A DNA stretch of 64,000 nucleotides, taken from positions 682,001 to 746,000 of the forward strand of contig NZ_JACCBB010000001.1 of assembly GCF_013409345.1 (NCBI RefSeq), written 5' to 3'. Of the stretch, positions 30,822-45,868 are shown piece by piece. The notes under the pieces are model-generated. The model did not search any database. It had not been told where the DNA came from and was given only the letters and a program-made list of their open reading frames with translations. This DNA comes from Kineococcus aurantiacus (GTDB lineage: Bacteria; Actinomycetota; Actinomycetes; Actinomycetales; Kineococcaceae). The translations under genes were made by a program, and so were the position numbers. Numbering within the stretch: the stretch's first letter is position 1; each line of letters opens with the position of its first letter.

Positions 30822-31648
30822 CCTCCCCCGCCGAGCACCCCGAACACCCCGGCCCCGCGAAGCCCGTGCACCGCACCGAGCTGGAACTGCCCGACGGCCG
30901 CGCGCTGGGGATCCACGACACCGGCGGCACGGGCGACGTCGTGCTGTGGCACGGCGGCACCCCCAACACGGGGGAACCCCCGCTGCCGTGGCGGGAGACC
31001 GACGCCCGCTGGATCGGCGTGGACCGCCCCGGATACGGCCGGTCCTCCCGCGTGCCCGGCCGCCGCATCGCCGACGTCGCGGCGGACGTGCGGGCCGTCC
31101 TGGACCACCTCGGTGTCGCGACGTGCCGCACGGTCGGGCACTCCGGCGGCGGCGCCCACGCCCTGGCCTGCGCCGCGCTGCTGCCCGACCGCGTGACGTC
31201 CGCGCTGTCGATCTCGGGCCTGGCCCCCTTCACCGGGGCCGACTGGTTCGAGGGCATGGGCCCGCACTCGCGCGCCTCGCTGGGCCGGGCCACCGCGGGC
31301 CGCAGGGCGAAGGAGCAGTTCGAGGCGGCGGGCGGGTCCGGTGGCGTCGACTTCACCGACGAGGACCGGGAGACGCTGGACGGCCCGTGGGGCTGGTTCG
31401 GGACGGTCGTGGCCGAGGCGGGCGGGGCCGGTTCCGGCGGGCTCGTCGACGACGACGTCGCGCACGTCTCGCCCTGGGGTTTCGACCCCGCCTCGATCAC
31501 CGTGCCGGTGACGCTCGTGCACGGCGAGGCCGACCGGGTGGTCCCCGTCGCCCACGCCCGCCGCCTCGCCGAGCTGATCCCCGGCGCCGACCTCGTCACC
31601 ATCCCCGGCGCCGGGCACCTGTCGGTGCTCGTGGAGATCTCCCGCTGA
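30818..31648 (+). CDS. Alpha/beta hydrolase
   Basis: The 276-residue protein has the alpha/beta hydrolase triad: nucleophile elbow [10 protein letters not shown], an acidic residue in HGEADRVVP and the histidine in GAGHLSVL. The oxyanion region is WHGGTPNTG. The substrate is unknown. GTG 30818 overlaps the preceding TGA (GTGA), implying translational coupling with the PLP enzyme. It converges on the Ter cluster, with 15 nt between stops. Confidence 0.82.
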
Positions 31649-31663
31649 GGCGCCCGCCGGCCC

Positions 31664-32479
31664 TCAGCCGGTGGCGGCCAGCAGCCAGCGGGCGATCTCC
31701 TCACCGGCCGCGGCCCCCGCGGCGCCGGTGAGCTCCACGCGCGGGTGCTCCCACCCGGTCCGCAGCAGCTCACCGTGCCGGGGGCGGCGGGCGGCGCGCG
31801 CGGCCAGCAGCAGGTCGACGTCCAGCAGCGAGTCACCGGCCGCCACGAAACCGTCGGCCCCGTGACGGCGCACGACCTCCGCGACCGCCGCCGACTTCGT
31901 CAGCGACCGCGGCACCGCGTACAGCTTGCGCCCCTGCAGGGACACCGCGTACCCCCACGGGTCCAGCCGAGCGGTCAGGTCCCCCAGCCGCGGCCCCTCC
32001 AGCGCCTCGCGCTGCCCCTCGCGCAGCACGACGTACCCGAACAACCCCGGGACCTCCCGCACCGACGGCTCCTCCGAGCCCGGCACGACGGCCACCAGCT
32101 CCCGGGCCAGCCGGGTCAGCGCGTCCAGCACGTCCGGCAGCGGCGCGCAGGCCGCGAGCCGCTCGCGCACGGCCGCGTCCCAGCCGGGGTCGGGGACCCC
32201 GTCACGCAGGACGACCCCGCCGTTGGCGCACACCGCGTCCCGCGGCGGTCCCTGCGGCCAGCGGATCCGGGAGTACTGCTCCACCGTGCGCGTCGTCACC
32301 GGGACGAAGCCGCCGGAGGCGACGAGGTCGGCCAGCACCGACCACGCCCCCGGCGTCACCCAGGAGATCGTCGCGTCGCGGTAGTCCTCCACGGGCACGA
32401 GACCCGCCACGTCGGCCTGCGCGGAGCGGGCGGAGAACACCAGCGTCTGGTCCAGGTCGCTCGCCGCGAGCAGCGCCAT
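31664..32479 (-). CDS. HAD-superfamily phosphatase of the Ter biosynthetic block
   Basis: The 271-residue protein has the HAD nucleophile motif ASDLDQTLVF near residue 10, VTTRT for motif II, KSAAV for motif III and AAGDSLLDVDLL for motif IV. The type IIB cap resembles sucrose-6-phosphate phosphatase. It is the last gene of the minus-strand Ter cluster and shares an ATGA overlap with stiP. In Ter systems such HAD enzymes are predicted to dephosphorylate the cluster metabolite; its identity is unknown. Confidence 0.83.
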   Translation of the reverse strand: MALLAASDLDQTLVFSARSAQADVAGLVPVEDYRDATISWVTPGAWSVLADLVASGGFVPVTTRTVEQYSRIRWPQGPPRDAVCANGGVVLRDGVPDPGWDAAVRERLAACAPLPDVLDALTRLARELVAVVPGSEEPSVREVPGLFGYVVLREGQREALEGPRLGDLTARLDPWGYAVSLQGRKLYAVPRSLTKSAAVAEVVRRHGADGFVAAGDSLLDVDLLLAARAARRPRHGELLRTGWEHPRVELTGAAGAAAGEEIARWLLAATG

Positions 32480-33624
32480 CAGACGGCCCTGCCGTCCGCG
32501 CCGGTCGCCCCGCGCGTGAACCGCGGGTGGATCAGCCCGATCGCCGAGTACGACAACCCCGGCACCTCCTCGACGACGACCCCGCGCTGGTCGGCGAGCA
32601 GCCGCACGTGGGCCAGGTCGTCGGGGTGGGCCAGTTCGGCCTCGGGCCGGACCAGGACCCGCCAGGGCACCCGGCGCAGCAGGACGCGCGTGGTCTCCCC
32701 CACCCCGGGTTTGACGAGGTTCACGTCCCCGATGCCGTAGTGCTCGCTGACGCGCTCGACCTCGGACCAGCCCGTGAACACCGCCGCCCGGTCCCCGGCC
32801 CGCACCGCCTCGACGGCCGCGGGGACCTCGGTGGCCACGTCGTCGAAGCACGCCGTGACGGCGTCCAGGAAGCGGTTCGACAGGTCCGCGCCGGCCAGCT
32901 CGGCGTAGAACTTCGCGCCGTGGAACTGCCCCGGGCCGGTGAGGCGGTCGTTGAGGACCGTGCGCGAGACCAGCCCCGAGACGGTGGAGTTCAGGCACGC
33001 CGAGGGGATGAGGTAGTCCTCGCGGGTGCCGAACGTCCGCACGCAGCGGCCCGGGTCGGCCAGCACGGCCAGGTCGTCGCTGAACCCGCCGAAGCGCTCC
33101 AGCGCCGCGGACAGCTCCCGCACGATGGCGCCCTTGCCCGTCCAGCCGTCGACGAACACGACCTTCGCGGGGTCGTGGTGGGCCGCGACCCACCGCAGCG
33201 CCACCTCGTCGATCCCGCGGCCGCGCACGATGGAGACGGCGACGTGCGGCCAGTGCAGCCCCTCGCGGACCGCCCAGCGCCGCAGCAGGATCCCCACGGG
33301 GGTGCCGGCCCGCGCGAGGGAGGCCAGCAGCAGGTCCTCCCCGCGGTCGGCGCGCAGCAGCCCGGCCACGACACCCACGCCCAGCGCGACCCGGCGGGCG
33401 CCGCGGGCCAGGGCGTCGTGGAACAGCCGCTGGTACTCGGGGCTGGGCTGGTACTCCACCGGCAGCGACTCGGCGTAGTGGGCGCCGCCGCTCTGGACGG
33501 CCTCCTCGCGCTCCTCGGCGGGGGCCTCCAGGTCGGCGCCGGACAGGTCGGTCAGCAGCCAGCTCACCTCGTCGGGGGCGTAGGACCCGAACCGCGGTCC
33601 CGACAGGGCTGGGGGCAGGTTCAC
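32479..33624 (-). CDS. stiP: StiP/PELOTA-domain protein of the Ter system (cysteine protease StiP-like annotation)
   Basis: The 381-residue protein starts GTG 33624, overlapping the PRTase stop by 4 nt (GTGA). The N-terminal region matches the Ter-associated StiP family: GPRFGSYAPDEVSWLL, HYAESLPVEYQPS, then VFVDGWTGKGAI, a PRTase-like loop. The C-terminal 80 residues (LLRRVPWRVLVRP ... LSYSAIGLIHPRF) match the PELOTA RNA-binding module often fused here. Database names call it a cysteine protease, but the GWTGKG segment suggests phosphoribosyl chemistry. It probably works with the neighbouring PRTase on a nucleoside-like product. Confidence 0.82.
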   Translation of the reverse strand: MNLPPALSGPRFGSYAPDEVSWLLTDLSGADLEAPAEEREEAVQSGGAHYAESLPVEYQPSPEYQRLFHDALARGARRVALGVGVVAGLLRADRGEDLLLASLARAGTPVGILLRRWAVREGLHWPHVAVSIVRGRGIDEVALRWVAAHHDPAKVVFVDGWTGKGAIVRELSAALERFGGFSDDLAVLADPGRCVRTFGTREDYLIPSACLNSTVSGLVSRTVLNDRLTGPGQFHGAKFYAELAGADLSNRFLDAVTACFDDVATEVPAAVEAVRAGDRAAVFTGWSEVERVSEHYGIGDVNLVKPGVGETTRVLLRRVPWRVLVRPEAELAHPDDLAHVRLLADQRGVVVEEVPGLSYSAIGLIHPRFTRGATGADGRAV

Positions 33625-35003
33625 GCGGGGTCTCTCCAGGGGTCGGCGGGCAGCGTGGCGAGCAGGAGGCGGGCGGTGTGCGGGGCCAGGGCGGCCAGCA
33701 CCCCGTCGGGGGCGTGCAGCGCCGCGGGGTCGGAGGCCGAGTCGACGACGAGCACGACGGCGTCCCACGGGACCGCGCGCGCGACGTTGTGGGCGTACCG
33801 GGTCCCCGGGCCGTCCTGGGCGGGGTCGTGGGAGCCGAAGGCGACGGAGCTGCGCACCGCGTACCCGGGGTCGTCCACGGCCAGCACGGGTGAGCGCGTG
33901 GTGGAGGAGAACCGGACCGTCGCGCCGGAGCGCTCGGCCAGCTGGACCGCGAGGGCCAGCGGCGCGTGCAGCAGCTCCTCCGAGCCCAGCACGAGGACCT
34001 GCGCCCCCGCGGGCAGCTGCGGCAGCAGGTGCCGGGCGAGGTCGGCCGCGGCGACGGCCTCCCCGTGCCCGGGGGCGGTGCCGAAGCGGGCCGTCGTCGG
34101 CACCGCGGCGGGCCAGTCCACCCGCACGGGCTCGACCGCGGCCCCCGGCAGCGACCGCGGGACGACGGGCTCGACGAGGGCGGTGAGCTCGGCCCCGCGG
34201 GCCAGGACGTCCGCGGGCAGGTCCACCGCGCCGCGCACGAGGGCGACGACGTCGACCCGGGTGCCGAGTTCGCGGGCCAGGTCCTGCAGCCGGTGCCGGT
34301 CCTCCCGCGAGCGCAGGTCGACCAGCCCGGCCACGACGTAGCGGCGGTGCGGGGCGAGGGCGTGCACGGCGCGGAGGGTGTTCGCCACCGTCCGGCCCGT
34401 GGACAGCTCGTCGTCGACGAGGACGACGGGCGCGGCCGGGTCGGCCAGCGCCGCCCGGACGGCCGGGTCGGCCGGCAGGAGGCGGTGGCCGGTGGCGTGG
34501 GAGTGCTCCTCCTCGAACCCCGCCCAGTCCACGGCCCCGGGCACCTCGCGCCGGGTGGAGTGCAGGCCGGCGCAGCCGAGGGCGTCGGCGACGGTCTGGC
34601 CCAGGCCGGTGGCGGTCTCGGCGTACCCCAGGACCACGGCGTCGGGCCGGGCCGGGCCGCGCCGGGCCCCGGCCAGGACCGCGCCCGCGGCCACCGGGTC
34701 CCCCGCCAGCGCGGCGCGCCAGGTGGCGGTGCCGGCGCCGGGGACGTCGGCGACGCCGAGGGCGTCGGCGACCCGGGCCCCCAGCCGCAGGCCGGCGGCG
34801 CGCACCAGCCGCGGGTCGGTGGGGACGTGCTTGCCGAGCACCCGGCTGACGAGCAGGTGCGCGCGGCGGGGGTTGCGGCGCAGCGCCAGGCCCAGCAGGT
34901 CCTCGACGGTGAGCCCGTCGACACCCGGTTCCCCGCTGACGCGGACCCCGAGCCGGTCGGCGACCCACGTGCGGGTCCCCGCGGGCAGGTGCAGGTCGGT
35001 CAC
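33621..35003 (-). CDS. Phosphoribosyltransferase with C-terminal TRSP domain
   Basis: The 460-residue protein has a PRTase domain with VVLGYAETATGLGQTVADAL and the PRPP loop VVLVDDELSTGRTVANTL. A C-terminal TRSP domain carries the diagnostic Thr-Arg-Ser-Pro in SSTTRSPVLAVDDPG. This architecture is known only from Ter-linked gene blocks. GTG 35003 overlaps the stop of the HpcH gene by 4 nt. A PRPP-dependent ribosylation of an unknown base is the expected reaction. Confidence 0.87.
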   Translation of the reverse strand: MTDLHLPAGTRTWVADRLGVRVSGEPGVDGLTVEDLLGLALRRNPRRAHLLVSRVLGKHVPTDPRLVRAAGLRLGARVADALGVADVPGAGTATWRAALAGDPVAAGAVLAGARRGPARPDAVVLGYAETATGLGQTVADALGCAGLHSTRREVPGAVDWAGFEEEHSHATGHRLLPADPAVRAALADPAAPVVLVDDELSTGRTVANTLRAVHALAPHRRYVVAGLVDLRSREDRHRLQDLARELGTRVDVVALVRGAVDLPADVLARGAELTALVEPVVPRSLPGAAVEPVRVDWPAAVPTTARFGTAPGHGEAVAAADLARHLLPQLPAGAQVLVLGSEELLHAPLALAVQLAERSGATVRFSSTTRSPVLAVDDPGYAVRSSVAFGSHDPAQDGPGTRYAHNVARAVPWDAVVLVVDSASDPAALHAPDGVLAALAPHTARLLLATLPADPWRDPA

Positions 35004-36226
35004 GGCGCGTCCCCCGGGCCCACCGCGCCGGCGCCGGCCCGGTAGGCCCGCCACGCCTCGTCCTGGGCCTGCAGCAGGTGGGCGTAGGACACGTCGTCGC
35101 GGGCGACGCCGAAGGCCCGGGCGCGCAGCACGACCCGCTCGGCCCAGGCGCGGTGCGGGCCGGCCTCGTTCATCTTGTTCCGGTACGAGGAGGCCATCGC
35201 CCCGCCGCCGTGCTGGGCCAGGACGTCGGAGGCGTCGCAGAAGTCCTCGTGGGTCACGACCGACGTGGCGTGCACGACCGCGACGTGCGAGGGGTGGATG
35301 ACGGTCTTGCCCTGCAGCCCGTTGACGCGGTCCAGGACGAGCTCGCGCACCAGGCCGTCGAGGTCGTCGGCGATGAGCTGCTCGCGCAGCTCCTCGGCAC
35401 CCTCGGCGAACGGGGAGGCGGCCAGGCTGGTCCGGAAGACCCGCTCCCCGGAGCTGAAGTGCTCGTAGACCGGCGCCGTGATGGGGTAGCCGCTGCCGTC
35501 GGCGCGGCCCAGGACGTTGATGACGTCGCCCAGGACGTCGGCGACGACGCGCACGTCCCACACGGTCTGCCCGCGCGGGCGGCGCAGCCCGTAGGCGGCG
35601 GACAGGTCGGTGGCGCCGGTCCGCACGGCCAGCACGAGGTCGCGGTGGGCGTCGAGGACGTCGCGGACGGCGAACAGGGCGCTGTGCCGGGTGTCGAGGT
35701 GGGCCACGTCGCGGCTCTCCAGCACCGGCATCGCCCACAGCCGGCGGCCGGCGCGCGCGGAGGCCTTGCGGACGGCCTCGAGCCACTCGTCCGGCGTGGG
35801 CTGCCCCTGACCGCCGAACTTGGGCAGCACGAAGCCCTGCAGGCACCGCAGCCCGACCCCGGCCCGGTCGACGACGTCGAGCAGCTGCTCGGGGGTGCGG
35901 GTGCGCAGGAACAGCAGCAGCGGCGCCCCCCCGGACCACTCCGGGGTCCGGGCCAGCCCGGCCAGCTCGCGCACGAGGATCTCCTCGGCCTCGGCGACCC
36001 GGTGGTCGGGGACGGAGTCCTCCAGGCAGGCCACGACCGACAGCACCCCGCGGCGGGCGAGCTTGAGCAGGTCCCCGGCGAGGCGCTCGCGGGTCGCGGG
36101 GCAGTACAGGGTGGCGCCCAGGGCGACGGCGAGCTCGTCGCGGCCGGCGGTGACGTCGACGGGCTGCGGGCGGTGCAGGAAGAGCCGCTCCGTCTGCTCC
36201 TCGTCGAGGGTGGCGAAGTGCCGCAC
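35000..36226 (-). CDS. HpcH/HpaI aldolase/citrate lyase-like protein of the Ter block
   Basis: The 408-residue protein has the citrate lyase beta-like TIM barrel: TLYCPATRE, VVACLEDSVPD (metal-ligand acids), LLLFLRTRTPEQ, AMPVLES and GKTVIHPSHV. The C-terminal extension ASSYRNKMNEAGPHRAWAERV is typical of Ter-linked forms. GTG 36226 is the first plausible start, 8 nt after the terD stop; no strong ribosome-binding site is seen. It is probably a C-C bond lyase or condensing step in making the Ter metabolite. Confidence 0.85.
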   Translation of the reverse strand: MRHFATLDEEQTERLFLHRPQPVDVTAGRDELAVALGATLYCPATRERLAGDLLKLARRGVLSVVACLEDSVPDHRVAEAEEILVRELAGLARTPEWSGGAPLLLFLRTRTPEQLLDVVDRAGVGLRCLQGFVLPKFGGQGQPTPDEWLEAVRKASARAGRRLWAMPVLESRDVAHLDTRHSALFAVRDVLDAHRDLVLAVRTGATDLSAAYGLRRPRGQTVWDVRVVADVLGDVINVLGRADGSGYPITAPVYEHFSSGERVFRTSLAASPFAEGAEELREQLIADDLDGLVRELVLDRVNGLQGKTVIHPSHVAVVHATSVVTHEDFCDASDVLAQHGGGAMASSYRNKMNEAGPHRAWAERVVLRARAFGVARDDVSYAHLLQAQDEAWRAYRAGAGAVGPGDAP

Positions 36227-36234
36227 GGACGTGT

Positions 36235-36813
36235 CTACAGGTGCTGCGCGACGGCGTCGCGCAGGTCGCGGAGGTGGCGGCCGTTCGCGGGCGCGCCGAT
36301 GGCGGTGACGGCCCAGCCGGAGCCCTCTCGGGTGAGCTTGGCCATGATCTGCGCGGTGTGCGGCCCGGAGTCGGACAGCTCGTAGCGGGCGAGCTCGACC
36401 TGCTGCGGCTGCGCGGCGTCCACGACCCGGCAGACGGCGTTGCGGACCTGGGAGAAGTCCTGGCCGGTGAAGCTGGAGACGGTGAAGACGAGGGTGGCGA
36501 CGTTCGCGGGGACGGCGGGCAGGTCGACGAAGATCACCTCGTCGTCGCCCTCGCCCTCCCCGGTGAGGTTGTCGCCGGAGTGCGTGACCGAGCCGTCCTT
36601 GCTGCGCAGCTGCTGGAACCACACCTCGTCGACGAGCTTCCCGCGCGCGTCGAAGAGCAGGCAGCTGGCGTCGAGGTCGATGTCGACGCTCCGCTTGCGG
36701 AACAGGCCCTTGGCCACGGCGTCCCAGCCCAGGCCCATGAAGACGCGGGTGAGCTCGCCGCCGCCGGTCTTGCTCAGCGACAGCTTCTGGCCCTTGGTCA
36801 GGCTGACGGCCAC
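36235..36813 (-). CDS. terD: TerD family protein (first copy)
   Basis: The 192-residue protein has the TerD beta-sandwich: VSLTKGQKLSLSK, VFMGLGWDA, DIDLDASCLLFD and the calcium-binding loop GDNLTGEGEGDDE, then YELSDSGPHTAQIMAKLTR. TerD proteins are cytosolic Ca2+-binding proteins, proposed to assemble beneath the TerC membrane protein during metal, oxidative or phage stress. GTG 36813 follows GAGAGGGGA. It shares about half its residues with the second copy at 39061-39636. Confidence 0.93.
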   Translation of the reverse strand: MAVSLTKGQKLSLSKTGGGELTRVFMGLGWDAVAKGLFRKRSVDIDLDASCLLFDARGKLVDEVWFQQLRSKDGSVTHSGDNLTGEGEGDDEVIFVDLPAVPANVATLVFTVSSFTGQDFSQVRNAVCRVVDAAQPQQVELARYELSDSGPHTAQIMAKLTREGSGWAVTAIGAPANGRHLRDLRDAVAQHL

Positions 36814-36850
36814 GTGCGTCCCCTCTCGTCGGGGTTGTCGGGTTCGGTGG

Positions 36851-36884
36851 GGTCCGGTCGGGGTCGGTCGGGGTCGGTCGGGGT
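36851..36884. repeat. 10-bp tandem repeat between terA-like gene and terD
   Basis: The 10-nt unit GGGTCGGTCG occurs about three and a half times in the 74-nt gap. It is non-coding and lies upstream of the terD ribosome-binding site, so it forms part of the intergenic leader. Confidence 0.7.
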
Positions 36885-36887
36885 GGT

Positions 36888-37745
36888 TCAGGACGGGCGG
36901 GGGACGGTGCCCCCGGCGTTCCAGTCGAGGTCGTCGAAACCGTAGGCCAGGGCCACCTCGCGCACCGGACCTTCGAAGAACTCGGCCTCGCGGCGCACGA
37001 CGAGGTCGCCGCCCACGTCGTGGATCGAGGCCAGCGCGCACGTGCGGGCCCCCGGGGGCGGGTCCCCGGCCCACAGCTGGACGGTGCCGCCACCGCGCCG
37101 GCCGATGGTCAGCTGCGGGGCGAGCTGCGCGAACTCGGGGGGCTGGGGCCCCACCGCGTAGGCGTAGAGGACCAGGCGGCGCATGAGGTGCAGGTGGGCG
37201 GCGTCGGCGAGGACCTCCTCGCCGGCCTGCTCGCTGCGCGCGCCCAGGCGCAGCACCTGCCGGGCGCCGAAACCGGGGGCGGCGAGCAGGTCCCCCAGCG
37301 ACTGCACCGCCCCCGCGTGCCGGTCCCGGGTCTCCCACAGGCACCCCAGGTGGACGTCGGAGGAGCGGTGCAGCCCCGAGCGGGTCACGAGCTGCTCCCA
37401 CGTGAGGGTGAACCGCAACGTCCCGCCGCGGCGCTCGGCGGCGGGGATCGTCAGGCTCGGGCGGTCCTCGTCGAGCACGACGCGGCGCTCGCTGTCCCGC
37501 GCCCGCCCCACGACGGCCTCGGGGGGCGGGGCGGGGACCCGCACCGCCGGGACCGGAGCCGGAGCGGGCCGGGGTGCGGGGCTCGGCCGCGGCGCGGGGG
37601 CCGCGGCACGAGGAGGGGCGGCACGAGGAGGGGCGGGACGAGGGGGGTGCAGGTGGTCGGCGAACGTCCGGCTGCTGCGGCGCGGCCCCGGGTGGCCGAG
37701 GAAGGTGTGCACCGCCTCGTCCGGTCGCCCGCCCGTCCCGCTCAC
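36888..37745 (-). CDS. TerA-like TerD-superfamily protein with Pro/Ala-rich N-terminus
   Basis: The 285-residue protein has a low-complexity Ala/Pro/Arg stretch at about residues 30-85, then a TerD-superfamily domain. HLGCLWETRDRHAGAVQSLG corresponds to the TerA signature DLGCLYE..DG..GAVQALG, and the end REAEFFEGPVREVALAYGFDDLDWNAG matches the TerA C-terminus. The Asp-rich Ca2+ loop is weaker than in TerD. GTG 37745 follows GGAGG. It probably assembles with TerD at the membrane. Confidence 0.8.
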   Translation of the reverse strand: MSGTGGRPDEAVHTFLGHPGPRRSSRTFADHLHPPRPAPPRAAPPRAAAPAPRPSPAPRPAPAPVPAVRVPAPPPEAVVGRARDSERRVVLDEDRPSLTIPAAERRGGTLRFTLTWEQLVTRSGLHRSSDVHLGCLWETRDRHAGAVQSLGDLLAAPGFGARQVLRLGARSEQAGEEVLADAAHLHLMRRLVLYAYAVGPQPPEFAQLAPQLTIGRRGGGTVQLWAGDPPPGARTCALASIHDVGGDLVVRREAEFFEGPVREVALAYGFDDLDWNAGGTVPRPS

Positions 37746-37800
37746 CCGCCGACCTCCTGCCCGTTCCCGTCCCTCCCCGTCCGCGCCGACCGCGCCGGGC

Positions 37801-38928
37801 TCAGCTGTGGGCGGCCGCCGTCTCGGCGTGCGCCTCCTCCGGGTGGGCCCGGTTGTACCGGATGGAGCTGATGAGCGAGGCCACGATGAAGGCCAGGCCG
37901 ATGAGGCCGGTGACGACCTCGGGGATCTCGATCTCGATGCTGATGAGCAGGATGGCGGCCAGCGCGCCGATCGCCCAGAGCGCACCGTTCTCCAGGTACG
38001 GGTACTGGGCCAGGGTGCCCTCCTCGACGAGGTGGACGGTCATGGACCGGATGTACATCGCCCCCACGCCCAGCCCGATCGCGATGATCACCGGGTCGGA
38101 GGTGATGGCGAAGGCACCGATGACGCCGTCGAAGGAGAACGAGGCGTCGAGGACCTCCAGGTAGAGGAAGAGGAAGAACGCCGCCTTGCCCGTGGCCCGG
38201 GCCACGGGCGTCGGGCCGTTGGACCGGGCGGGCGCGCCCTCCTCGTGGTGCTCGCCGTGCTCGAGGTGCTCCTCGACGTTGAACAGCTCACCGAGCCCGT
38301 TGACCAGCAGGTACGTGACGATGCCGGCCAGGCCGGAGGCCAGGACGGTGCGGCCGTGCTCGGTGGCGAAGCTCTCGGCGACGATCAGCAGCACGGCGCC
38401 GGCGACGATGACCTGGACGTACTCGAGCTTGCCGACCTTCTCCAGCAGCCGCTCCAGGGGCCCGATCCAGTGGTGCTCCTTCTCCCCGAAGATGAAGTTC
38501 AGGAAGAGCATGAGCAGGAACATCCCGCCGAAGGCGGCGATGGTCGGGTGCGCCTCGTGCAGCTCGTAGCCGTAGGTGCCGGGGGTCTCGGGGTCCCCGC
38601 CGGCCAGCGCGAGGCGGATGACCTCGGCGGGGCTGAGACCGGCGGTCACGCAGACCAGGACGATGGGGAAGATCAGCCGCATGCCGAAGACGGCGACGAT
38701 GATGCCGACGGAGAGGAAGATCTTCCGCCAGAAGTCGCTCATCCGTTCCAGGATGGTGGCGTTCACCACGGCGTTGTCGAAGGACAGGCTGATCTCGAGG
38801 ATCGAGAGGATGAGCACGAGGGCGATCGCCTGGCCGATGCCCAGGTGGGCCGACAGGCCGTACCAGGCTGCGAGCACGAGGCCCACGGCGGTCACGACGA
38901 ACGACCAGCGGTAGGTCTTGAGGATCAC
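37801..38928 (-). CDS. TerC/DUF475 family integral membrane protein
   Basis: The 375-residue protein has about eight to nine membrane segments. Acidic motifs sit within helices (EISLSFDNAVVNATIL near residue 45 and DASFSFDGVIGAFAI in the second half), the hallmark of the TerC superfamily. The cytoplasmic loop HLEHGEHHEEGA is His-rich and may bind metal. Members transport or handle Mn2+ or other metals and anchor Ter complexes. GTG 38928 follows AAGGAAG. The first gene after the internal terminator, it may have its own promoter. Confidence 0.9.
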   Translation of the reverse strand: MILKTYRWSFVVTAVGLVLAAWYGLSAHLGIGQAIALVLILSILEISLSFDNAVVNATILERMSDFWRKIFLSVGIIVAVFGMRLIFPIVLVCVTAGLSPAEVIRLALAGGDPETPGTYGYELHEAHPTIAAFGGMFLLMLFLNFIFGEKEHHWIGPLERLLEKVGKLEYVQVIVAGAVLLIVAESFATEHGRTVLASGLAGIVTYLLVNGLGELFNVEEHLEHGEHHEEGAPARSNGPTPVARATGKAAFFLFLYLEVLDASFSFDGVIGAFAITSDPVIIAIGLGVGAMYIRSMTVHLVEEGTLAQYPYLENGALWAIGALAAILLISIEIEIPEVVTGLIGLAFIVASLISSIRYNRAHPEEAHAETAAAHS

Positions 38929-39012
38929 CAGTCAGCTTCCTTGTCGAACGGAGCCCGCACGGGCTGGACACCGCACCTTCTCACCGAACGCGCAGCTCGC
39001 GCACACCTGACG

Positions 39013-39044
39013 GACCGCGCGGCCCGGGAGCGGGCCGCGCGGTC
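39013..39044 (-). terminator. Internal terminator of the Ter cluster, after terD second copy
   Basis: GACCGCGCGGCCC pairs perfectly with GGGCCGCGCGGTC (13 bp, 6-nt loop), 17 nt after the terD stop on the minus strand. It would uncouple the telA-terD transcript from terC and the biosynthetic block unless read through. Confidence 0.75.
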
Positions 39045-39060
39045 GTCGTGAGCAGGTGGG

Positions 39061-39636
39061 TCAGACGCTGACGCCGAAGTCGGTCGCGATGCCGCGCAGA
39101 CCGTCGGCGTAGCCCTGGCCGACGGCGCGGAACTTCCAGTCGCTGCCGTTGCGGTACAGCTCGCCGAAGACCATGGCGGTCTCGGTGGAGGCGTCCTCGG
39201 ACAGGTCGTAGCGCGCGACCTCGGTGCCGCCCTCGGCGTTCACGACGCGGATGAAGGCGTTGCGGACCTGGCCGAAGGACTGCTTGCGGGTGTCGGCGTC
39301 GTAGATGGCGACGGTGAAGACGATCTTGTCGATCTCGGCCGGGACGGCGGACAGGTCGACGTTGATCTTCTCGTCGTCGCCGTCGCCCTCACCGGTGCGG
39401 TTGTCGCCGGTGTGCTCGACGGAGCCCTCGGGGGACTTCAGCTGGTTGAAGAAGACGAAGTACCCGTCGCTGGGGACCTTGCCGTTGGCGCCGACCATGA
39501 TGGCCTGCGCGTCCAGGTCGAACTCCGAGCCGGTGAAGGTGTTCGCGTCCCAGCCCAGGCCGATGACGGCCTTGGTCATCCCCGGGGCTTCCTTGGACAG
39601 GGAGACGTTGCCGCCCTTGCTGAGGCTGACGCCCAT
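39061..39636 (-). CDS. terD: TerD family protein (second copy)
   Basis: The 191-residue protein is a canonical Ter[39 protein letters not shown], the Ca2+ loop [13 protein letters not shown] and [21 protein letters not shown]. The ATG follows AAGGAG. It precedes the internal terminator, so it is the last gene of the telA-led transcript. Having two TerD paralogues in one cluster is common in Ter systems. Confidence 0.95.
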
Positions 39637-39710
39637 GGTGAACCGCTCCTTCTAGGTGTCGTGCGTGCGTGTCGTCGGGCCAACGATCACCGGCCCGTGG
39701 AAGTGCCCGG

Positions 39711-40508
39711 TCAGTCCCGCGAACCCGAGAACAGACCGCCGAGCGCGCCGAACCCCTGCTGGTCGGGTTTGGCGCTGTTCTTGACGAGGGCCTTGGCGAA
39801 GGCCTCGATCGTGACCGACTGCAGGATGACGCGCCCGTTGCCGCGCAGCGTGGCCAGCGTCAGCCCCTCCCCGCCGAGGACGGCGTTCACGATCCCCTGC
39901 CGGTTGAGCCGTCCCACCGTCTCGACGCCGTAGGTGATCTGGTCGTCCCAGGCCACGATGCAGCCGGTGTCGACGCGGATCGTGCCGCCGTAGTCGGCGG
40001 GGTTGATGTCGATGAAGTCGCCGGCCCCGGCGATCATGAGCGACCCGCGGCCGGTGAACTTCTCCAGGATGAAGCCCTCCCCGCCCATGAGCCCCTGCCC
40101 GAAGCCGGAGAAGGCGATGTCGAAGTGGACCCCGGCCTCGGCGGCCACGAAGGCGTCCTTCTCGGCGAACCACGTCGTGCGGCCGTCGAGCTCGATCACC
40201 CGCATCTCCCCGGGCAGGACGCCCGCCAGGCCCAGCAGGCCGTCCCCGCCGGGGGTGTGGAAGTGCTGGAAGGCGAACGACTCCCCCGCCAGCACCCGCT
40301 TCCCGGCGTTGGCCGCGCCGCGCAGCAGGCCGCCCAGCCCGCCGCCCGCCCCGCCGGGGTCGCTGGGCGCCGACAGCTTCGTCTCCATGACGACGTCCCC
40401 GGAGGAGAACAGGAACTTGCCCGCCTCGCAGTAGACCGTCTGGCCGGGGCGCAGGGTCACCACGGCCATCTGGGTCGTGGAGCCGACGAGCTGCACGTCG
40501 AGGGTCAT
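39711..40508 (-). CDS. AIM24 family (TIGR00266) protein
   Basis: The 265-residue beta-rich protein matches the AIM24/TIGR00266 family: RPGQTVYCEAGKFLFSSGDVVMETKL, GLLRGAANAGKRVLAGESF, GEGFILEKFTGRGSLMIAG and GGIYxL-like VLGGEGLTLATLRGNGRVILQS. Bacterial members often sit in Ter and membrane-stress clusters; their biochemistry is unknown. The gene lies 37 nt after the broken paralogue and 74 nt before terD. Confidence 0.85.
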   Translation of the reverse strand: MTLDVQLVGSTTQMAVVTLRPGQTVYCEAGKFLFSSGDVVMETKLSAPSDPGGAGGGLGGLLRGAANAGKRVLAGESFAFQHFHTPGGDGLLGLAGVLPGEMRVIELDGRTTWFAEKDAFVAAEAGVHFDIAFSGFGQGLMGGEGFILEKFTGRGSLMIAGAGDFIDINPADYGGTIRVDTGCIVAWDDQITYGVETVGRLNRQGIVNAVLGGEGLTLATLRGNGRVILQSVTIEAFAKALVKNSAKPDQQGFGALGGLFSGSRD

Positions 40509-40545
40509 GATCCCTTCCTACCGCACCCGTCGCTCCCCGCGGGGA

Positions 40546-41410
40546 TCACAGGTCCAGGTCGCTCTTGCGGAACTTGGTCTCCAGGAAGCGGCTCTGCTGC
40601 TGCTGGCGGTCGACGTCGGCGGCCAGGACGGCCTCGCGCAGCCGCTGGCAGCCCTCGACGAGCAGGTGCAGCTGGTTGCGCAGCTCCTGCACGGGGGCCC
40701 CGCGGGCGACGTCGGCGGGCAGCGCGAGGTGGTCGGCGACCGTGCGGGGCAGGTGCTCGGTGGCCAGGGTCTCCAGGTCGTGCCGGACCTGCGGGTCCGC
40801 CCCACGCTCGGCGACGCGCAGCAGCAGCGGCCCGAGCAGGTCGGCGATCTCGTGGACCAGGACGACGTCGGTGCGCTCGAACCGGTCGCTGGTGTCGACG
40901 CGGCGCACGGTGGCCACGAGGGCCTTCTCGGCCGCCGTGACGCGCGGGGCGGGCGGCGCGGCGCTCACCGGCGCGGGCGGGCGGGGCGCGCGCTCCACCG
41001 GCGGGGACGGCGGGGACGGCGGGGACGGCCAGGCCCAGCCTCACCGCGCGCCGGTAGTGGCGCCGCAGGCGGCGACGGCGGCGCGCCTCGTTCCCGTAGG
41101 CCACGTTCGCGCCGATCCAGGCCCACATGGCCAGGAACCCGACCCACCACAGCCCCAGCGGCCCGAGGGTGGCGTACAGGACGACCCAGCCGCCCAGGCC
41201 GACGAAGTTGAACAGCTGGAACCGGGCGTCGGAGACCCAGCCCAGGACCGGCAGGTCCGCGCCCAGCGGCGGTTCGAGCTGCTCGGGCCGCAGGACCTCG
41301 ACGTGCCGCTCGGGGACGGCCCCGGGAACGGCCTGGGGGACGGCCCCGGGCACGTCCTGGCGGCGCGGCTCCTCACCGGGACCGCCGGGCCTGCTCAGCT
41401 CGATCCCCAC
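40546..41410 (-). pseudogene. Third XpaC-like membrane paralogue, interrupted by a frameshift
   Basis: The N-terminal part from GTG 41410 encodes a short linker and two membrane segments (FQLFNFVGLGGWVVLYATLG, GLWWVGFLAMWAWIGANVAYG). The C-terminal part is in another frame, from about 41000 to 40546, and matches the two upstream paralogues through RHDLETLATEHLPRTV, QQQQSRFLE and the end SDLDL. The frames can join only between 41040 and 40998, inside three 9-bp repeats. One extra base (or two missing) explains it. It may be a real pseudogene, a phase-variable locus or a sequencing error. Confidence 0.8.
41001..41027. repeat. 9-bp tandem repeat at the frameshift site
   Basis: GCGGGGACG is present three times in tandem, encoding Val-Pro-Ala units in the upstream frame and Pro-Ser-Pro in the downstream frame. 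Slippage within unit repeats keeps frame, so the actual 1-base change must lie in or beside the array. Confidence 0.8.
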
Positions 41411-41417
41411 GGCAGGC

Positions 41418-42263
41418 TCACAGGTCCAGGTCGCTGCGGCGGAACTTCGACTCCAGGAAGCGGCTCTGCTGCTGCTGGCGGTCGACGTCGCGGGCCAGCA
41501 CCGACTCGCGCAGCTGCCGGCAGCCCTCGACCAGCAGCAGCAGCTGGCTGCGCAGCTCGTCGGCGGGGGTGGTCCCGGAGGGGGTGCGGTGCTCGTGGGC
41601 GTAGTCGGCGGGCAGGACGAGGTAGTCGTCGACCGTGCGCGGCAGGTGCTCGGTGGCCAGGGTCTCCAGGTCGTGCCGGACCTGCGGGTCGGACTCGCGG
41701 GTGCGCAGCTGGGCCAGCAGCGGGCGCAGCAGGCGGTCGACCTCGCGGACCAGCTCGACGCACTCGGCGTCGATGCGGCCGCCGGAGGTCTCGGCGCGCA
41801 CGACCGCACGCGCCAGCGCCCGCTCGGCGACGCTGACCGGGTCCGGTGGCGCGGGAGCCACCGGGACCGGCGCCGGCGCGCGGCGCAGCGCCCGCGCGCG
41901 GTGCCGTTCCAGCCGGCGGGCGCGGATCTCCTGGCGGTTCACCCCGGCCCACGGCAGGCCGTGGTGCTTGACGTAGCCGAACACGGCGCCCTGCACCAGC
42001 AGCATGACCAGCCCGACGAACCAGAGCCGGCCCGTGGCGAACATGACGATCCAGCCGGCCGTCCACGTCCCGGTGAACACCTTCATGCCGTGCTCGCTCA
42101 GCCCGCGGGCCGGTGCGGGCTGCGGCACGGACGGCTCGCGCTTCTCGTACGGCGCGGGCGGGGGCGTGGTCCGGGCGAGCGCTCCCCCGGTGCGGACCTG
42201 CGGCGGCGGTTCGTCCCGCTGGCGGGGGCCGGCGCCCTCCCCCTTGCCGAGTTCGACTCCCAC
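41418..42263 (-). CDS. XpaC-like membrane protein, second paralogue
   Basis: The 281-residue protein has a Pro/Arg-rich N-terminus of about 60 residues, a membrane region (TGTWTAGWIVMFATG, WFVGLVMLLVQGAVFGYV) and a helical cytosolic C-terminal domain with RHDLETLATEHLPRTVDDYLVLP and QQQQSRFLESKFRRSDLDL. I do not recognise a named family with certainty. Position next to telA and the architecture suggest XpaC (5-bromo-4-chloroindolyl phosphate hydrolysis) relatives. GTG 42263 follows GGGGGGA. Confidence 0.6.
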   Translation of the reverse strand: MGVELGKGEGAGPRQRDEPPPQVRTGGALARTTPPPAPYEKREPSVPQPAPARGLSEHGMKVFTGTWTAGWIVMFATGRLWFVGLVMLLVQGAVFGYVKHHGLPWAGVNRQEIRARRLERHRARALRRAPAPVPVAPAPPDPVSVAERALARAVVRAETSGGRIDAECVELVREVDRLLRPLLAQLRTRESDPQVRHDLETLATEHLPRTVDDYLVLPADYAHEHRTPSGTTPADELRSQLLLLVEGCRQLRESVLARDVDRQQQQSRFLESKFRRSDLDL

Positions 42264-42272
42264 GGGTCCCCC

Positions 42273-43202
42273 CTACAGGTCCAGGTCCGAACGGCGGAAC
42301 TTCGCGTCGAGGAACCGCCCCTGGACGGCCAGCTTGCGCGCGTCCTGGTCGTGCACGGCGCGCTGCAGGTCCCGGGAGCCGTCGGCGAGCAGCCGCAGCT
42401 GGTTCAGCAGCTCCTCGGCGGGGGTGGTGCCGCCGGGGCCGCGGTTGGTCAGCGCGTACTCCTCGGGCAGGTCCAGGTAGTGCTCCAGGGCACCGGGCAG
42501 GTACTCGGTGACGATGGCCTCGAGGTTGTGCAGCTCCTCGACGTCGGCGCCCCGCCGGGCGACGTGCGCCAGCAGGGGCCGCAGCACGTCCTCGATCTCG
42601 CGCACGGCCGGGACGGCGCCGTCCGGCAGCCGCCCGCCGGCGCGGTTGGCGGTGCGCACGACCTCGCGCAACCGCTCCTGCAGCGCGACGACCGGGTCGG
42701 CCGGCGGCGCCTGCACCGGGGCGGGGGCGGGGGCGGCCTCCAGGGCCGGTTCCCCCGTGAACGCCGCCTTGATCCGCAGCCACGTCGAGTTCGCCATGAT
42801 CGAGTGCACCAACCCCAGACCCCACGTCCCGGTGCCCAGGAGGACACCGAGCACGATCGACAGGTCGCCCCCGGGGAACAGGGCACCGGCCCCGACCGCC
42901 GAGCCGGCCGCGACGAAGGCGACGAGGTAGGCGACCGCCGCCAGCACCCACCGCACCCGCCGGGCCCGCAACCCCATGTACAGGAACGACAACCACGGCA
43001 ACCCGACCGCGGGGACCACCAGCCACCACGAGTTCGCCGCGCGCCAGGCCCGGCTGCGCAGCCGGCGGGCGACGAGCTCGGGCGGGGCCTGCGCCGCCCC
43101 CCGCGCACCGCCGCGGCGCACCACCGCGCCCTCGGCGGCCGCGGCGCGGCGCAGGGCGCGCGAGGGGCGGGCGTCGCCGCGGGAGGGGGCCACCGAACTC
43201 AC
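42273..43202 (-). CDS. XpaC-like membrane protein, first paralogue
   Basis: The 309-residue protein has three to four membrane segments (WWLVVPAVGLPWLSFLYMGL, WVLAAVAYLVAFVAAGSAVGAG, SIVLGVLLGTGTWGLGLVHSIM). Its helical C-terminal domain is shared with the two following genes: LHNLEAIVTEYLPGALEHYLDLP, GTTPAEELLNQLRLL and the end FRRSDLDL. GTG 43202 overlaps the telA stop by 4 nt (GTGA), so it is translated together with TelA. The XpaC relation is inferred from context and architecture. Confidence 0.65.
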   Translation of the reverse strand: MSSVAPSRGDARPSRALRRAAAAEGAVVRRGGARGAAQAPPELVARRLRSRAWRAANSWWLVVPAVGLPWLSFLYMGLRARRVRWVLAAVAYLVAFVAAGSAVGAGALFPGGDLSIVLGVLLGTGTWGLGLVHSIMANSTWLRIKAAFTGEPALEAAPAPAPVQAPPADPVVALQERLREVVRTANRAGGRLPDGAVPAVREIEDVLRPLLAHVARRGADVEELHNLEAIVTEYLPGALEHYLDLPEEYALTNRGPGGTTPAEELLNQLRLLADGSRDLQRAVHDQDARKLAVQGRFLDAKFRRSDLDL

Positions 43203-44461
43203 CGGGGGCCTTCCAGCGCCGGGCCCGCGCCCTGCTCACCGTTGCGCGCGCGCTCGAGGTAGGACCGCGAGCGGTGCACCTGCCCCTCGAGGGCGTCGAC
43301 GGTGCTGGCCATGCTGACGACGGCCTGCTGCTTGAAGGTGTCGATGGCGTCCATCGTCGCGAAGACGTTGTCGAAGGCCTTCTGCAGCGTGCCCACGTCG
43401 ACCATGGCGGTGGAGGCCTGCTGGTGGATCTGCCCCGTCTGCTGCTTCAGCATCTCCGAGGTCGACAGGATCATCTGGTTCGTCGTGGTGTTCAGCGCGT
43501 TGATCTGGTCCAGGACGAGCTTCTGGTTGGCCAGCGCCTGGGCCACGATGACGGCCGTGCGCAGCGCGGCCACCGTCGTCGTCTGCGCGCGGTCGACGCC
43601 CTTGATGAGCTCGATGTTGTTCTTGCGCACCAGGTCCAGCGCCAGGTAGCCCTGCACGCTGACGGCCAGCTGGGTCAGCAGGTCCTGGTGGCGCTGGCGG
43701 ATGGGGAACAGCGCGTCGGAGGTCAGGGCGTCGGCGGCCTGCGGGTTGGAGACCCGCAGCTCCTCGATCTTGCCCACGGTCGCCGCGTCGAGGGCCTTGG
43801 CCAGCGTGGCGTACTCGGTGAGCTTGCCCATCGTGGTCCACAGGTGCTGCTTCTCGGACTCGATGGAGGCGTTGTCCTTGCGCAGCTCGTCCTGGCCGCT
43901 GGCCAGCGCCTTGATGATGGCGTCGAGCTGGGACTGGGCGTCCTGGTAGCGCTCGAAGTAGCGCTGGACCTTGCTGCCCAGGGGGATGATCCCGAGGATC
44001 TTCTTGACGCCCTTGAGGTCGGCCCGGCCGGGGTCGAGGTCGGTGACGGTCCGGCGCAGGTCCAGCAGCGTGTTCGCGACCTTGACCTGCGCGTCGGCCC
44101 CCGGCCCGGACGCCTTCTGCCCCTTGGCCCCGGCCAGGCTGGACTGCGGGCGCTCGAGCATGCGGTTGGAGACCTGGGCCGAGGAGCGAACCTCCTGCTC
44201 GCCCATGCGCGTGATGTCGTCGACCTTCTTCTGGAAGGCGGGGCTGCGCGGGTCCTGGGCGGCCAGGTCGGCCACGAAGGCCTGCGCCTTGCGGTTCAGC
44301 TCGGCCCGGGTGGCCTCGTCCAGCGGGATCATGCCCTCGGCGGTGTCGTCGGCCACGACGGGCACGGGCGCCGGCGGGGTCAGCTGCAGGTCCGCGGGCG
44401 CCGGTGCGGGGGCCGCGGCCGGCGGGTCCAGCGGCTTGCTCAGGTCCAGCGACTCCGACAT
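43199..44461 (-). CDS. telA: Toxic anion resistance protein TelA
   Basis: The 420-residue, mostly helical cytosolic protein matches the TelA/KlaA/YaaN family: LLDLRRTVTDLDPGRADLKG, ILGIIPLGSKVQRYFERYQDAQSQLDAIIKAL, KQHLWTTMGKLTEYATLAKALD, and LQKAFDNVFATMDAIDTFKQQAV. TelA proteins are linked to resistance to tellurite and membrane-active agents, and in Bacillus the partner is XpaC. ATG 44461 follows GAGGGGAA. It is the first gene of the cluster; a TAGGAT -10 candidate lies 60 nt upstream. Confidence 0.93.
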   Translation of the reverse strand: MSESLDLSKPLDPPAAAPAPAPADLQLTPPAPVPVVADDTAEGMIPLDEATRAELNRKAQAFVADLAAQDPRSPAFQKKVDDITRMGEQEVRSSAQVSNRMLERPQSSLAGAKGQKASGPGADAQVKVANTLLDLRRTVTDLDPGRADLKGVKKILGIIPLGSKVQRYFERYQDAQSQLDAIIKALASGQDELRKDNASIESEKQHLWTTMGKLTEYATLAKALDAATVGKIEELRVSNPQAADALTSDALFPIRQRHQDLLTQLAVSVQGYLALDLVRKNNIELIKGVDRAQTTTVAALRTAVIVAQALANQKLVLDQINALNTTTNQMILSTSEMLKQQTGQIHQQASTAMVDVGTLQKAFDNVFATMDAIDTFKQQAVVSMASTVDALEGQVHRSRSYLERARNGEQGAGPALEGPR

Positions 44462-44521
44462 CAGGCGGTTCCCCTCGTCCTCGAACTGCGTTCCACCCGC
44501 GCCACCCCGGGCGTGCCACCG

Positions 44522-44527
44522 ATCCTA
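44522..44527 (-). promoter_or_regulatory. Candidate -10 element of the Ter cluster promoter
   Basis: TAGGAT on the minus strand matches TAnnnT and gives a leader of about 54 nt before telA. No recognisable -35 was found. The remaining intergenic DNA to 44699 shows only GC-rich short inverted repeats. Confidence 0.4.
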
Positions 44528-44699
44528 GGTCGGTGCCGCGCGGAGCAGGGCGCCTGCGGTCGTCCGATCCTCACCGACGCCGACGCCCCGCGGCATCCTC
44601 CCCACGGTGGAGGAATCGTGAGCACCCGTACGCCGGTCGTCGGGGGGTGCCCGGGACGTCACCCACCCCGCGGGCCGGGGTCCCGGGGTCCTCCCGGGG

Positions 44700-44882
44700 T
44701 CACCAGTCGTCCTCCTCGCGGTCGCGGCGGTCGTTCTCCTCGGTGCGGGCACGGGCCTTCTCCAGGGCGTGCTCGGCCTCCTCGCGCGTGGCGTAGGGGC
44801 CCAGCAGGTCCTTGCCCTGCCCCTTGCGCTCCAGCTCCTGCACCTGACCGGTGCTCGTGTCGTAGAACCACTGCGTCGCCAT
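44700..44882 (-). CDS. Small SPOR-like protein opposite map
   Basis: The 60-residue protein starts at ATG 44882, preceded by GAGGAT. It reads MATQWFYDTSTGQVQ and then GPYATREEAEHALEKARART, which resembles a minimal SPOR repeat (the G-P-F/Y-x-T-x-x-E-A pattern), followed by an acidic tail ending EEDDW. Similar short proteins stand divergent from methionine aminopeptidase genes in other actinobacteria. Function is unknown; it has no signal peptide or membrane segment. Confidence 0.75.
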   Translation of the reverse strand: MATQWFYDTSTGQVQELERKGQGKDLLGPYATREEAEHALEKARARTEENDRRDREEDDW

Positions 44883-44977
44883 GGGCGCATCCTCGCGCGA
44901 AGCCGCCCCCGGCGCCTCCCCCGCCGCCTCCCCCGCCGCCTCCCCGCGCCGTCGCGGAGGGGCCGGTGCGCCCGACC

Positions 44978-44983
44978 TAGACT
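44978..44983 (+). promoter_or_regulatory. Leaderless -10 box for map
   Basis: TAGACT is followed by 6 nt and ATG 44990, with no Shine-Dalgarno sequence. Confidence 0.55.
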
Positions 44984-44989
44984 CCTGGC

Positions 44990-45868
44990 ATGAGCACGGG
45001 AACCGCCACCGCACCCCTGGGCACCCTGGTGCCCGGCACCGTCTCCCCGCGTCGCGCGGTCCCGGCCCGGATCGCCCGCCCCGAGTACGTCGACCGGCCG
45101 GCCCCCGCGCCCTACCGGGGGCCGAACGTCATCGACCCCGAGGGCGTGGAGAGGATCCGGCGCGCGAGCCGGCTGGCCGCGCAGGCCATGGCCGTGGTCG
45201 CCGAGCACGTCGTGCCGGGCACGACGACGGACGAACTGGACCGCGTCGGGCACGAGTTCCTGTGCGACCACGGCGCCTACCCCTCGACGCTGGGGTACCG
45301 CTCCTTCCCGAAGTCGTTGTGCAGCAGCCTGAACGAGGTCATCTGCCACGGCATCCCGGACTCCACGGTGCTGGCCGACGGCGACATCGTGAACATCGAC
45401 ATCACGGCCTACCTCGACGGGTTCCACGGCGACACGAACGCCACCTACCTGTGCGGCGACGTCGACGAGGAGTCGCGGCTGCTCGTCGAGCGGACCCGCG
45501 AGGCGACCGAGCGGGGCATCAAGGCCGTGGCCCCGGGCCGGGCGGTCAACGTCATCGGCCGCGTCATCGAGAAGTACGCCGCGCGCTTCGGGTACGGCGT
45601 GGTCCGCGACTTCACCGGGCACGGGGTGGGGCCGGCCTTCCACACCGGCCTGGTCATCCCGCACTACGACGCCGCACCGGCGCACGACCTGGTCATGGAG
45701 CCGGGGATGGTCTTCACCATCGAGCCGATGCTGACGCTGGGCACCCACGAGTGGGACATGTGGGAGGACGGCTGGACGGTCGTCACGAAGGACCGCAAGC
45801 GCACCGCGCAGTTCGAGCACACCCTCGTCGTGACCGAGACGGGGTCGGAGGTCCTCACCCTCCCGTAG
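44990..45868 (+). CDS. map: Methionine aminopeptidase type I, with N-terminal extension
   Basis: The enzyme removes the initiator methionine from new proteins. The 292-residue protein has the pita-bread fold with metal ligands in [20 protein letters not shown] (two Asp), [11 protein letters not shown] (His), FTIEPML (Glu) and [10 protein letters not shown] (Glu). About 40 extra residues precede the catalytic domain and include a Pro-rich PAPAPYRG segment, as in the mycobacterial extended type I enzyme. The start is set by the leaderless promoter. Confidence 0.95.

Follow-up and report, generated by a model that had tools for sequence, protein, structure and literature searches.

Bacteria with the Ter system have drawn attention for their resistance to tellurite, phages, and colicins, and the enzyme block of the system is predicted to make a sugar-linked, nucleoside-like small molecule. 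A run of thirteen consecutive genes in Kineococcus aurantiacus, in which such enzymes stand beside TelA, TerD, and TerC-family proteins, raises the question of whether it is a stress or defense system of its own kind or a form of the described one, and of how its parts may work together. We analyzed it within a window of 64,000 nucleotides (positions 682001 to 746000 of the larger of two contigs of this 5.03-Mb genome), whose numbering is used throughout. As a first reading made from the letters alone (the sequence-only reading) had stated, all thirteen genes lie on the minus strand at 31664-44461, from the start of telA at 44461 to the end of the HAD gene at 31664; their G+C content, 74.7%, is nearly equal to the 75.2% of the window. 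The cluster is a conserved version of a Ter stress system that has been described before, and we consider it reasonably probable that it joins two modules of that system, coupling a pathway fed by phosphoribosyl pyrophosphate (PRPP) to TerD/TerC membrane effectors.

The enzyme genes close the run. They encode a C-C bond lyase of the CitE/HpcH type (35000-36226; PF15617, C-C_Bond_Lyase, E 6.2e-109, 364.5 bits), the phosphoribosyltransferase (PRTase) PRTase_2-TRSP with the loop VVLVDDELSTGRT (33621-35003; PF15609, E 1e-62, 211.4 bits, and PF12500, E 1.1e-28, 100 bits), StiP-PELOTA, a predicted second PRTase-fold protein with a PELOTA RNA-binding domain (32479-33624; PF11202, E 8.1e-101, 336.8 bits, and PF15608, PELOTA_1, E 1.5e-31, 108.4 bits), and, last in the run, a HAD-family phosphatase (31664-32479). 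Two TerD genes (TerD1, 39061-39636, PF02342, E 3.3e-86, 288 bits; TerD2, 36235-36813, PF02342, E 2e-45, 155 bits) flank a gene for a DUF475/TerC-family membrane protein (37801-38928; PF04332, E 5.6e-123, 410.9 bits, and PF03741, E 2.2e-20, 73.6 bits) and one for a TerA-like or distant TerD-like protein (36888-37745). At the front stand TelA of the toxic anion resistance family, first in the run (43199-44461; PF05816, E 5.5e-92, 308.8 bits), three paralogous membrane proteins termed X1, X2, and X3, and an AIM24-family protein (39711-40508; PF01987, E 6.9e-56, 189.6 bits).

Pfam thus placed eight of the thirteen genes, and the HAD gene was placed by its profile match, in agreement with the Ter family assignments of the sequence-only reading and with the domains it had expected in the StiP, PRTase-TRSP, and HpcH proteins; X1, X2, X3, and the TerA-like gene had no Pfam family at the default threshold. 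The name TerA-like fared less well and is weakly supported: the gene itself has no Pfam match, and of its 20 aligned relatives two reach TerD, both marginally (E 0.0038 at best). A counterpart adjoins DUF475 in other actinobacterial loci. None of the thirteen genes matched a TerB or vWA family in Pfam. The tight packing reported earlier stood in part. The largest gap is indeed 132 nt, but instead of six 4-nt overlaps we found, with the starts chosen here, three (TelA/X1, lyase/PRTase, and PRTase/StiP) and a 1-nt overlap at StiP/HAD. At the remaining eight junctions the genes are separated by 7, 8, 9, 37, 55, 74, 74, and 132 nt.

StiP occurs once per genome in 12 of 12 sampled genomes of the family, K. 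aurantiacus included. Of 11 same-family loci fetched, seven span the region, and the four that end inside the cluster at contig ends were excluded from the order count. All seven complete loci, which span two genera, keep the order that the sequence-only reading had suggested comparing: a reversed M24 peptidase gene as flank, TelA, the X copies, AIM24, TerD, DUF475, TerA-like, TerD, lyase, PRTase, StiP, and HAD. AIM24 was found in six of them and not in L020, the X genes number three in five loci and two in the other two, and TelA is 83 to 95% identical across the seven. The conserved order together with the shared M24 flank is more than chance would be expected to give.

Beyond the family, StiP was detected in 20 of 396 sampled phylum genomes (19 over the family cut-off), and a scan of a genome collection gave at least 587 confirmed StiP relatives, the best 80 of which are our named loci; 74 of these 80 come from Streptomyces. 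The best 80 carry HAD (80), PRTase (79), lyase (75), TerD (74), TerA-like (69), and DUF475 (67), counts which suggest that the enzyme block, hereafter module 1, travels with TerD and TerC. TelA, X, and AIM24 went undetected in all 80, with flanks of up to 10 kb, shorter at contig ends, and the front module of TelA, XpaC-like, and AIM24 genes was seen only in this family (7/7 complete loci, AIM24 in six). In this sample the widespread unit would therefore be the enzyme block plus TerD/TerC, with TelA, X, and AIM24 as a family addition. The 106 loci compared overlap in species (for example L024/L063, L025/L064, and L049/L106), and the 80 named loci are the best of at least 587, so that they are not independent. 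Two distant actinobacterial StiP relatives, L061 and L062 (31% identical), adjoin TerD, with no PRTase, lyase, or HAD detected. No second Ter cluster was seen around the other two TerD genes (L162 and L163), which had no recognized Ter neighbors when translated open reading frames (ORFs) were inspected by eye, without a Pfam scan.

The sequence-only reading had put the cluster forward as an undescribed defense or stress system, a proposal that we do not uphold: the block is the published Ter-linked block, and a PADLOC scan of 10 cluster proteins (X1 to X3 were outside the scan) returned a single match, TelA to JetC at 20 bits. The lyase and StiP count as members of that block by their Pfam descriptions. 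K. aurantiacus shares with it PRTase_2-TRSP, StiP-PELOTA, and the C-C bond lyase together, the HAD phosphatase, and the linkage to TerD and TerC-family genes; the published description likewise has PRTases and HAD alongside TerD, TerC, and TelA (PMC7824862). It differs in that no Ter-type ATP-grasp enzyme was found in the Kineococcus genome and in that TelA, at the front, is accompanied by AIM24 and three XpaC-like genes. The Streptomyces Ter cluster (for example in Streptomyces sp. NBC_00249, L049, whose contig is also that of L106) likewise has TerD, TerD, DUF475, TerA-like, lyase, PRTase, StiP, and HAD, but with a reversed TerD gene before the lyase (the order in 62/106 loci), with PRTase and StiP mostly in one ORF, and with TelA, X, and AIM24 undetected in the flanks examined. 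Enterobacterial plasmid ter loci (R478, Klebsiella NTUH-K2044) share the biosynthetic gene set and TerA/C/D but form two opposed operons, the first of 14 genes with terXYW and the second terZABCDEF (PMC8115787), whereas Kineococcus has one run.

The present analysis adds a family-specific junction in which the TelA partner is multiplied, a frame-broken X3, the apparent lack of a Ter ATP-grasp, and computational support, from predicted structures, for a transferase fold in StiP. Open-licence literature on Kineococcus radiotolerans and tellurium terms yielded no title on this cluster, and that joining TerD, TelA, and phosphoribosyltransferase made no mention of Kineococcus, AIM24, DUF475, or HpcH. 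The prediction of a nucleoside-like Ter product, which the sequence-only reading had rightly traced to Aravind and colleagues, is credited by later papers to Anantharaman, Iyer, and Aravind 2012 (PMC8115787, PMC7824862), and in the published model Ter proteins make a signal, sense it, and respond at the membrane (PMC7824862).

The first transferase shows the predicted fold and the canonical PRPP loop of type I phosphoribosyltransferases. Its PRTase_2 part was modeled as adenine phosphoribosyltransferase (APRT)-like with a predicted template modeling score (pTM) of 0.91; the best VIA match was APRT 5zc7 (Z 12.7, root mean square deviation [rmsd] 3.4, 175 aligned), and among the 50 listed rows, 44 bear the title of a phosphoribosyltransferase, UMP synthase, or PRPP synthetase, while six have titles that name no function. 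D197, D198, T202, G203, and T205 of its canonical PRPP loop are invariant in 21 aligned rows. PRTase-TRSP and StiP-PELOTA share one stop-free frame in 87 of the 101 loci that carry both (5 of the 106 loci, without PRTase, being left out), and because the ORF is shared elsewhere, the two may well work as a complex also here, where separate genes that overlap by 4 nt encode them. The TRSP part (residues 305 to 455 of the protein) resembles the PRTase_2 half in its order of strands and helices and in a VLGxxE...STxR stretch. On profile comparison we set aside TRSP as a degenerate PRTase and keep it only within an unlikely reading given below: hhalign gave E 0.058 (probability 0.9%) against PRTase_2 and E 0.29 against StiP, within the noise of the run, in which the unrelated pairs PRTase_2-PELOTA and lyase-HAD reached E 0.015 over 11 columns and E 0.024. 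For the lyase, the profile search led to lyases of the CitE type (1sgj, a citrate lyase beta subunit, at E 5e-8). For the HAD gene itself, no Pfam or NCBIfam match was obtained; its profile matches the trehalose phosphatase structures 6cj0/6d3v (E 1.6e-22), and D8, D10, K195, G215, and D216 are invariant in 17 of 17 aligned rows.

StiP is predicted to have a type I phosphoribosyltransferase fold with an unusual conserved loop. Its AlphaFold2 model was built from 25 aligned sequences; the best of five reached a predicted local distance difference test (pLDDT) score of 82.3 and a pTM of 0.87, the other four having pLDDT values of 71.7 to 73.2. In the VIA comparison, 49 of the 50 listed rows are of the PyrR type or the hypoxanthine phosphoribosyltransferase (HPRT) type, with PyrR 4p81 the best (Z 10.4, rmsd 3.5, 144 aligned), and Foldseek matched the model to hypoxanthine-guanine phosphoribosyltransferase (HGPRT) at E 7.9e-4. 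The remaining VIA row, small-subunit-processome chain 5tzs_f, which we take to be L7Ae-like, covers residues 283 to 374 in the PELOTA part (Z 9.1, rmsd 5.6, 87 aligned); there the StiP profile also met RNase P subunit p38, non-significantly (E 0.22). Across all 107 StiP rows, eleven residues do not vary: R105, P109, G111, H150, D159, W161, T162, G165, S208, S220, and R221. An older Pfam name of the family was presumably PRTase_1, in which case the fold assignment may restate an earlier prediction.

Several results pull the other way. Foldseek ranked a cysteine desulfurase first for StiP by E-value, and pyridoxal phosphate enzymes of this kind made up 9 of its 50 listed matches; these, with template modeling (TM) scores of about 0.2 and probabilities of 0.25 to 0.57, are regarded as spurious. 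The PRTase-type Foldseek matches reach target TM-scores of only 0.26 to 0.53, the comparison of StiP with the PRTase_2 profile was not significant (E 0.11), and a phmmer search gave no PDB relative. The usual PRPP-loop motif, DDxxxTGxT, has two acidic residues. In the StiP loop, VVFVDGWTGKGA, D159 is kept in 107/107 rows and is followed by G (105) or A (2); because the second acidic residue is missing from this loop (DGWTGKG), StiP may lack transferase activity.

In the mechanism that we favor, module 1 (HAD, StiP-PELOTA, PRTase-TRSP, and lyase) would be a PRPP-consuming pathway. The canonical PRTase_2 would transfer ribose-5-phosphate to a base-like acceptor, the CitE-like lyase would trim or prepare the carbon skeleton, StiP, held against PRTase_2 and bearing PELOTA, would perform or control a second PRPP or nucleotide step, and the HAD phosphatase would liberate a nucleoside-like product by dephosphorylation. 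Module 2 (both TerD proteins, TerA-like, TerC/DUF475, AIM24, the three XpaC-like proteins, and TelA) would be the membrane responder, in which the TerD proteins, which are metal binding, may read the signal, TerC may move or load divalent metal, and TelA with its XpaC-like partners may guard the envelope. Gene content, conserved order, the shared ORF of the transferases, predicted folds, and conserved catalytic-type residues support the mechanism; how the chemical steps follow one another, what they yield, and how this product is linked to the membrane proteins are what we infer. Published phenotypes fit it but stem from other organisms: Klebsiella terC has tellurite, Zn, Mn, and phage phenotypes with no peroxide effect (PMC12054061), and Bacillus TerC proteins act in Mn metalation of secreted enzymes (PMC10550928).

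The mechanism draws on sequence and predicted structure. Against it counts that TelA, X, and AIM24 went undetected in the 80 named loci, so that the link of the front module to module 1 rests on one family. Pfam further describes the ATP-grasp enzyme PF15632 as part of a biosynthetic pathway with the Ter operon, and our search for it, made in this genome only, gave carbamoyl-phosphate synthase (33 bits) as its sole match, although no result marks the ATP-grasp as obligatory for the block; lacking a Ter-type ATP-grasp, the pathway may be shorter here or borrow an enzyme.

Among other explanations, the one to which we grant most, while still thinking it doubtful, is that two unrelated operons merely abut, an envelope-stress unit of TelA, XpaC-like, and AIM24 genes and a Ter biosynthetic unit. 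A two-gene unit of TelA and an X-like gene indeed occurs in G150 (L149:26-1923/L164:6296-8268), a genome of the same taxonomic order without a StiP match, the best named module 1 loci have no TelA in flanks that are often shorter than 10 kb, and TerD1 is flanked by gaps of 74 nt and 132 nt. These gaps, however, hold no terminator-like site, and an order identical in every complete locus of two genera speaks for one unit. Anti-phage defense, with a nucleotide product that signals infection and with TerC/TelA blocking entry, seems unlikely. It has been proposed for jumbo phages (PMC7824862), and TelA with TerC and TerD is also found in Caulobacter jumbo phages (PMC7824862); phage-protein families resembling TelA, TerD, and DUF475 exist, and a Klebsiella terC mutant gave larger plaques with eight phages, growth differing for four and plating efficiency for one (PMC12054061). 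On the other hand, the locus is syntenic, the enzymes have no PADLOC match, and the presence of StiP in every family genome sampled suggests a core function rather than a sporadic defense island. A side role in defense is conceivable, since published work links Ter loci to phage resistance (PMC12054061).

Two further explanations turn on StiP. The Pfam title of PF11202 is cysteine protease, and 105 of 107 rows have Cys210, as many as have His235, so that the block could be a proteolytic stress regulator and not a biosynthetic pathway. We hold this to be improbable, because the predicted fold is that of a PRTase, because the PRTase-type residues are invariant in all 107 rows whereas two rows lack Cys210 and two lack His235 (for Cys210 most likely L061 and L062, the divergent relatives that lack the rest of the block), and because StiP so often shares its ORF with the PRTase. 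Reading StiP as a PRTase fold instead of a protease changes the choice of assay. It is also imaginable, though we give it very little weight, that several PRTase folds (PRTase_2, a diverged tandem TRSP, and an RNA-guided StiP) form one assembly and that the metabolite is a stress-induced RNA modification, not a free signal; StiP would then dock RNA via PELOTA, and its altered PRPP-loop site would attach or exchange a base or sugar supplied by the other enzymes.

The front of the cluster, assigned to module 2 in the favored mechanism, was characterized by alignment. X1 (42273-43202), a membrane protein and TelA partner, X2 (41418-42263, with a core start possibly at 42086), and X3 (40546-41410) have a C-terminal helical domain in common, in which a motif resembles HLPxTVxxYLxLP and the end resembles FLxxKFRxSDLDL. 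At E 0.001 Pfam assigned none of them to a family, and at E 10 it still gave no convincing match. The XpaC model PF10112 matched none of the three, nor did any of 12 family genomes exceed its cut-off, and a comparison of the X and XpaC profiles gave E 0.011 (probability 3.9%), where a chance pair elsewhere gave E 0.015. We therefore rejected membership of the XpaC family, the profile link being near noise, and use "XpaC-like" by position and C-terminal motif only. PF10112 genes adjoin TelA in three of five PF10112 loci (L154, L156, and L157) from 198 phylum genomes; no TelA was seen in 3.5 kb around the PF10112 gene of L155 and L158. In these two loci the PF10112 relatives lie between ORFs that resemble, by eye, vWA-type and solute-binding-type proteins. 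The XpaC-TelA pair of Listeria (lmo1966-lmo1967) and its B. subtilis relatives likewise sets TelA beside a membrane protein with a YLPxT...Y helical stretch, but the Kineococcus partner follows TelA, is triplicated, and falls below Pfam detection; in Listeria, the XpaC and TelA relatives form a putative operon that is bacteriocin induced (PMC12791056). The X family was found in 3 of 296 phylum genomes, K. aurantiacus included, in one only at E 4.5e-4. In X3 the reading frame changes between the membrane part and the C-terminal part, next to a 9-bp repeat in three copies near 41026 (40990-41060), whereas its counterpart is one continuous frame in 6 of 6 relatives examined; the frame break may be real or an assembly error.

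Upstream of telA, the alignment of the seven loci suggests a promoter or control region (44462-44660, minus strand) with conserved AGGATCGG boxes. A CCTAGGATCGG box is present in six of the seven loci, K. aurantiacus being counted among the seven (L026 differs), and at three sites in the genome, one of them at telA; a second AGGATCG and, besides, a GGGG(T/A)GGATGCC element are present in all seven. A sigma-70 consensus scan of 31000-45100 found no site, which is weakly informative for high-GC actinobacteria. A manganese riboswitch (yybP-ykoY) before DUF475 was considered and dropped, as an Rfam scan of 31000-45500 gave no riboswitch above threshold; a Guanidine-II match (25.3 bits against a threshold of 32), on the opposite strand inside the X3 coding sequence, was set aside as chance. 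Between the M24 peptidase gene and telA, a 60-residue ORF (MATQWFYDTSTGQVQELE..., 44700-44882, minus strand) is conserved in 7/7 aligned loci and has no Pfam match.

The Kineococcus version of the Ter system is compact, a single run with four enzyme genes and with no Ter-type ATP-grasp found, and as such, in a culturable and non-pathogenic genus, it is a simpler test bed than the plasmid loci of pathogens. The family-wide junction of this enzyme block with TelA and XpaC-like genes would place the envelope-stress and metabolite halves of the system in one heritable unit.

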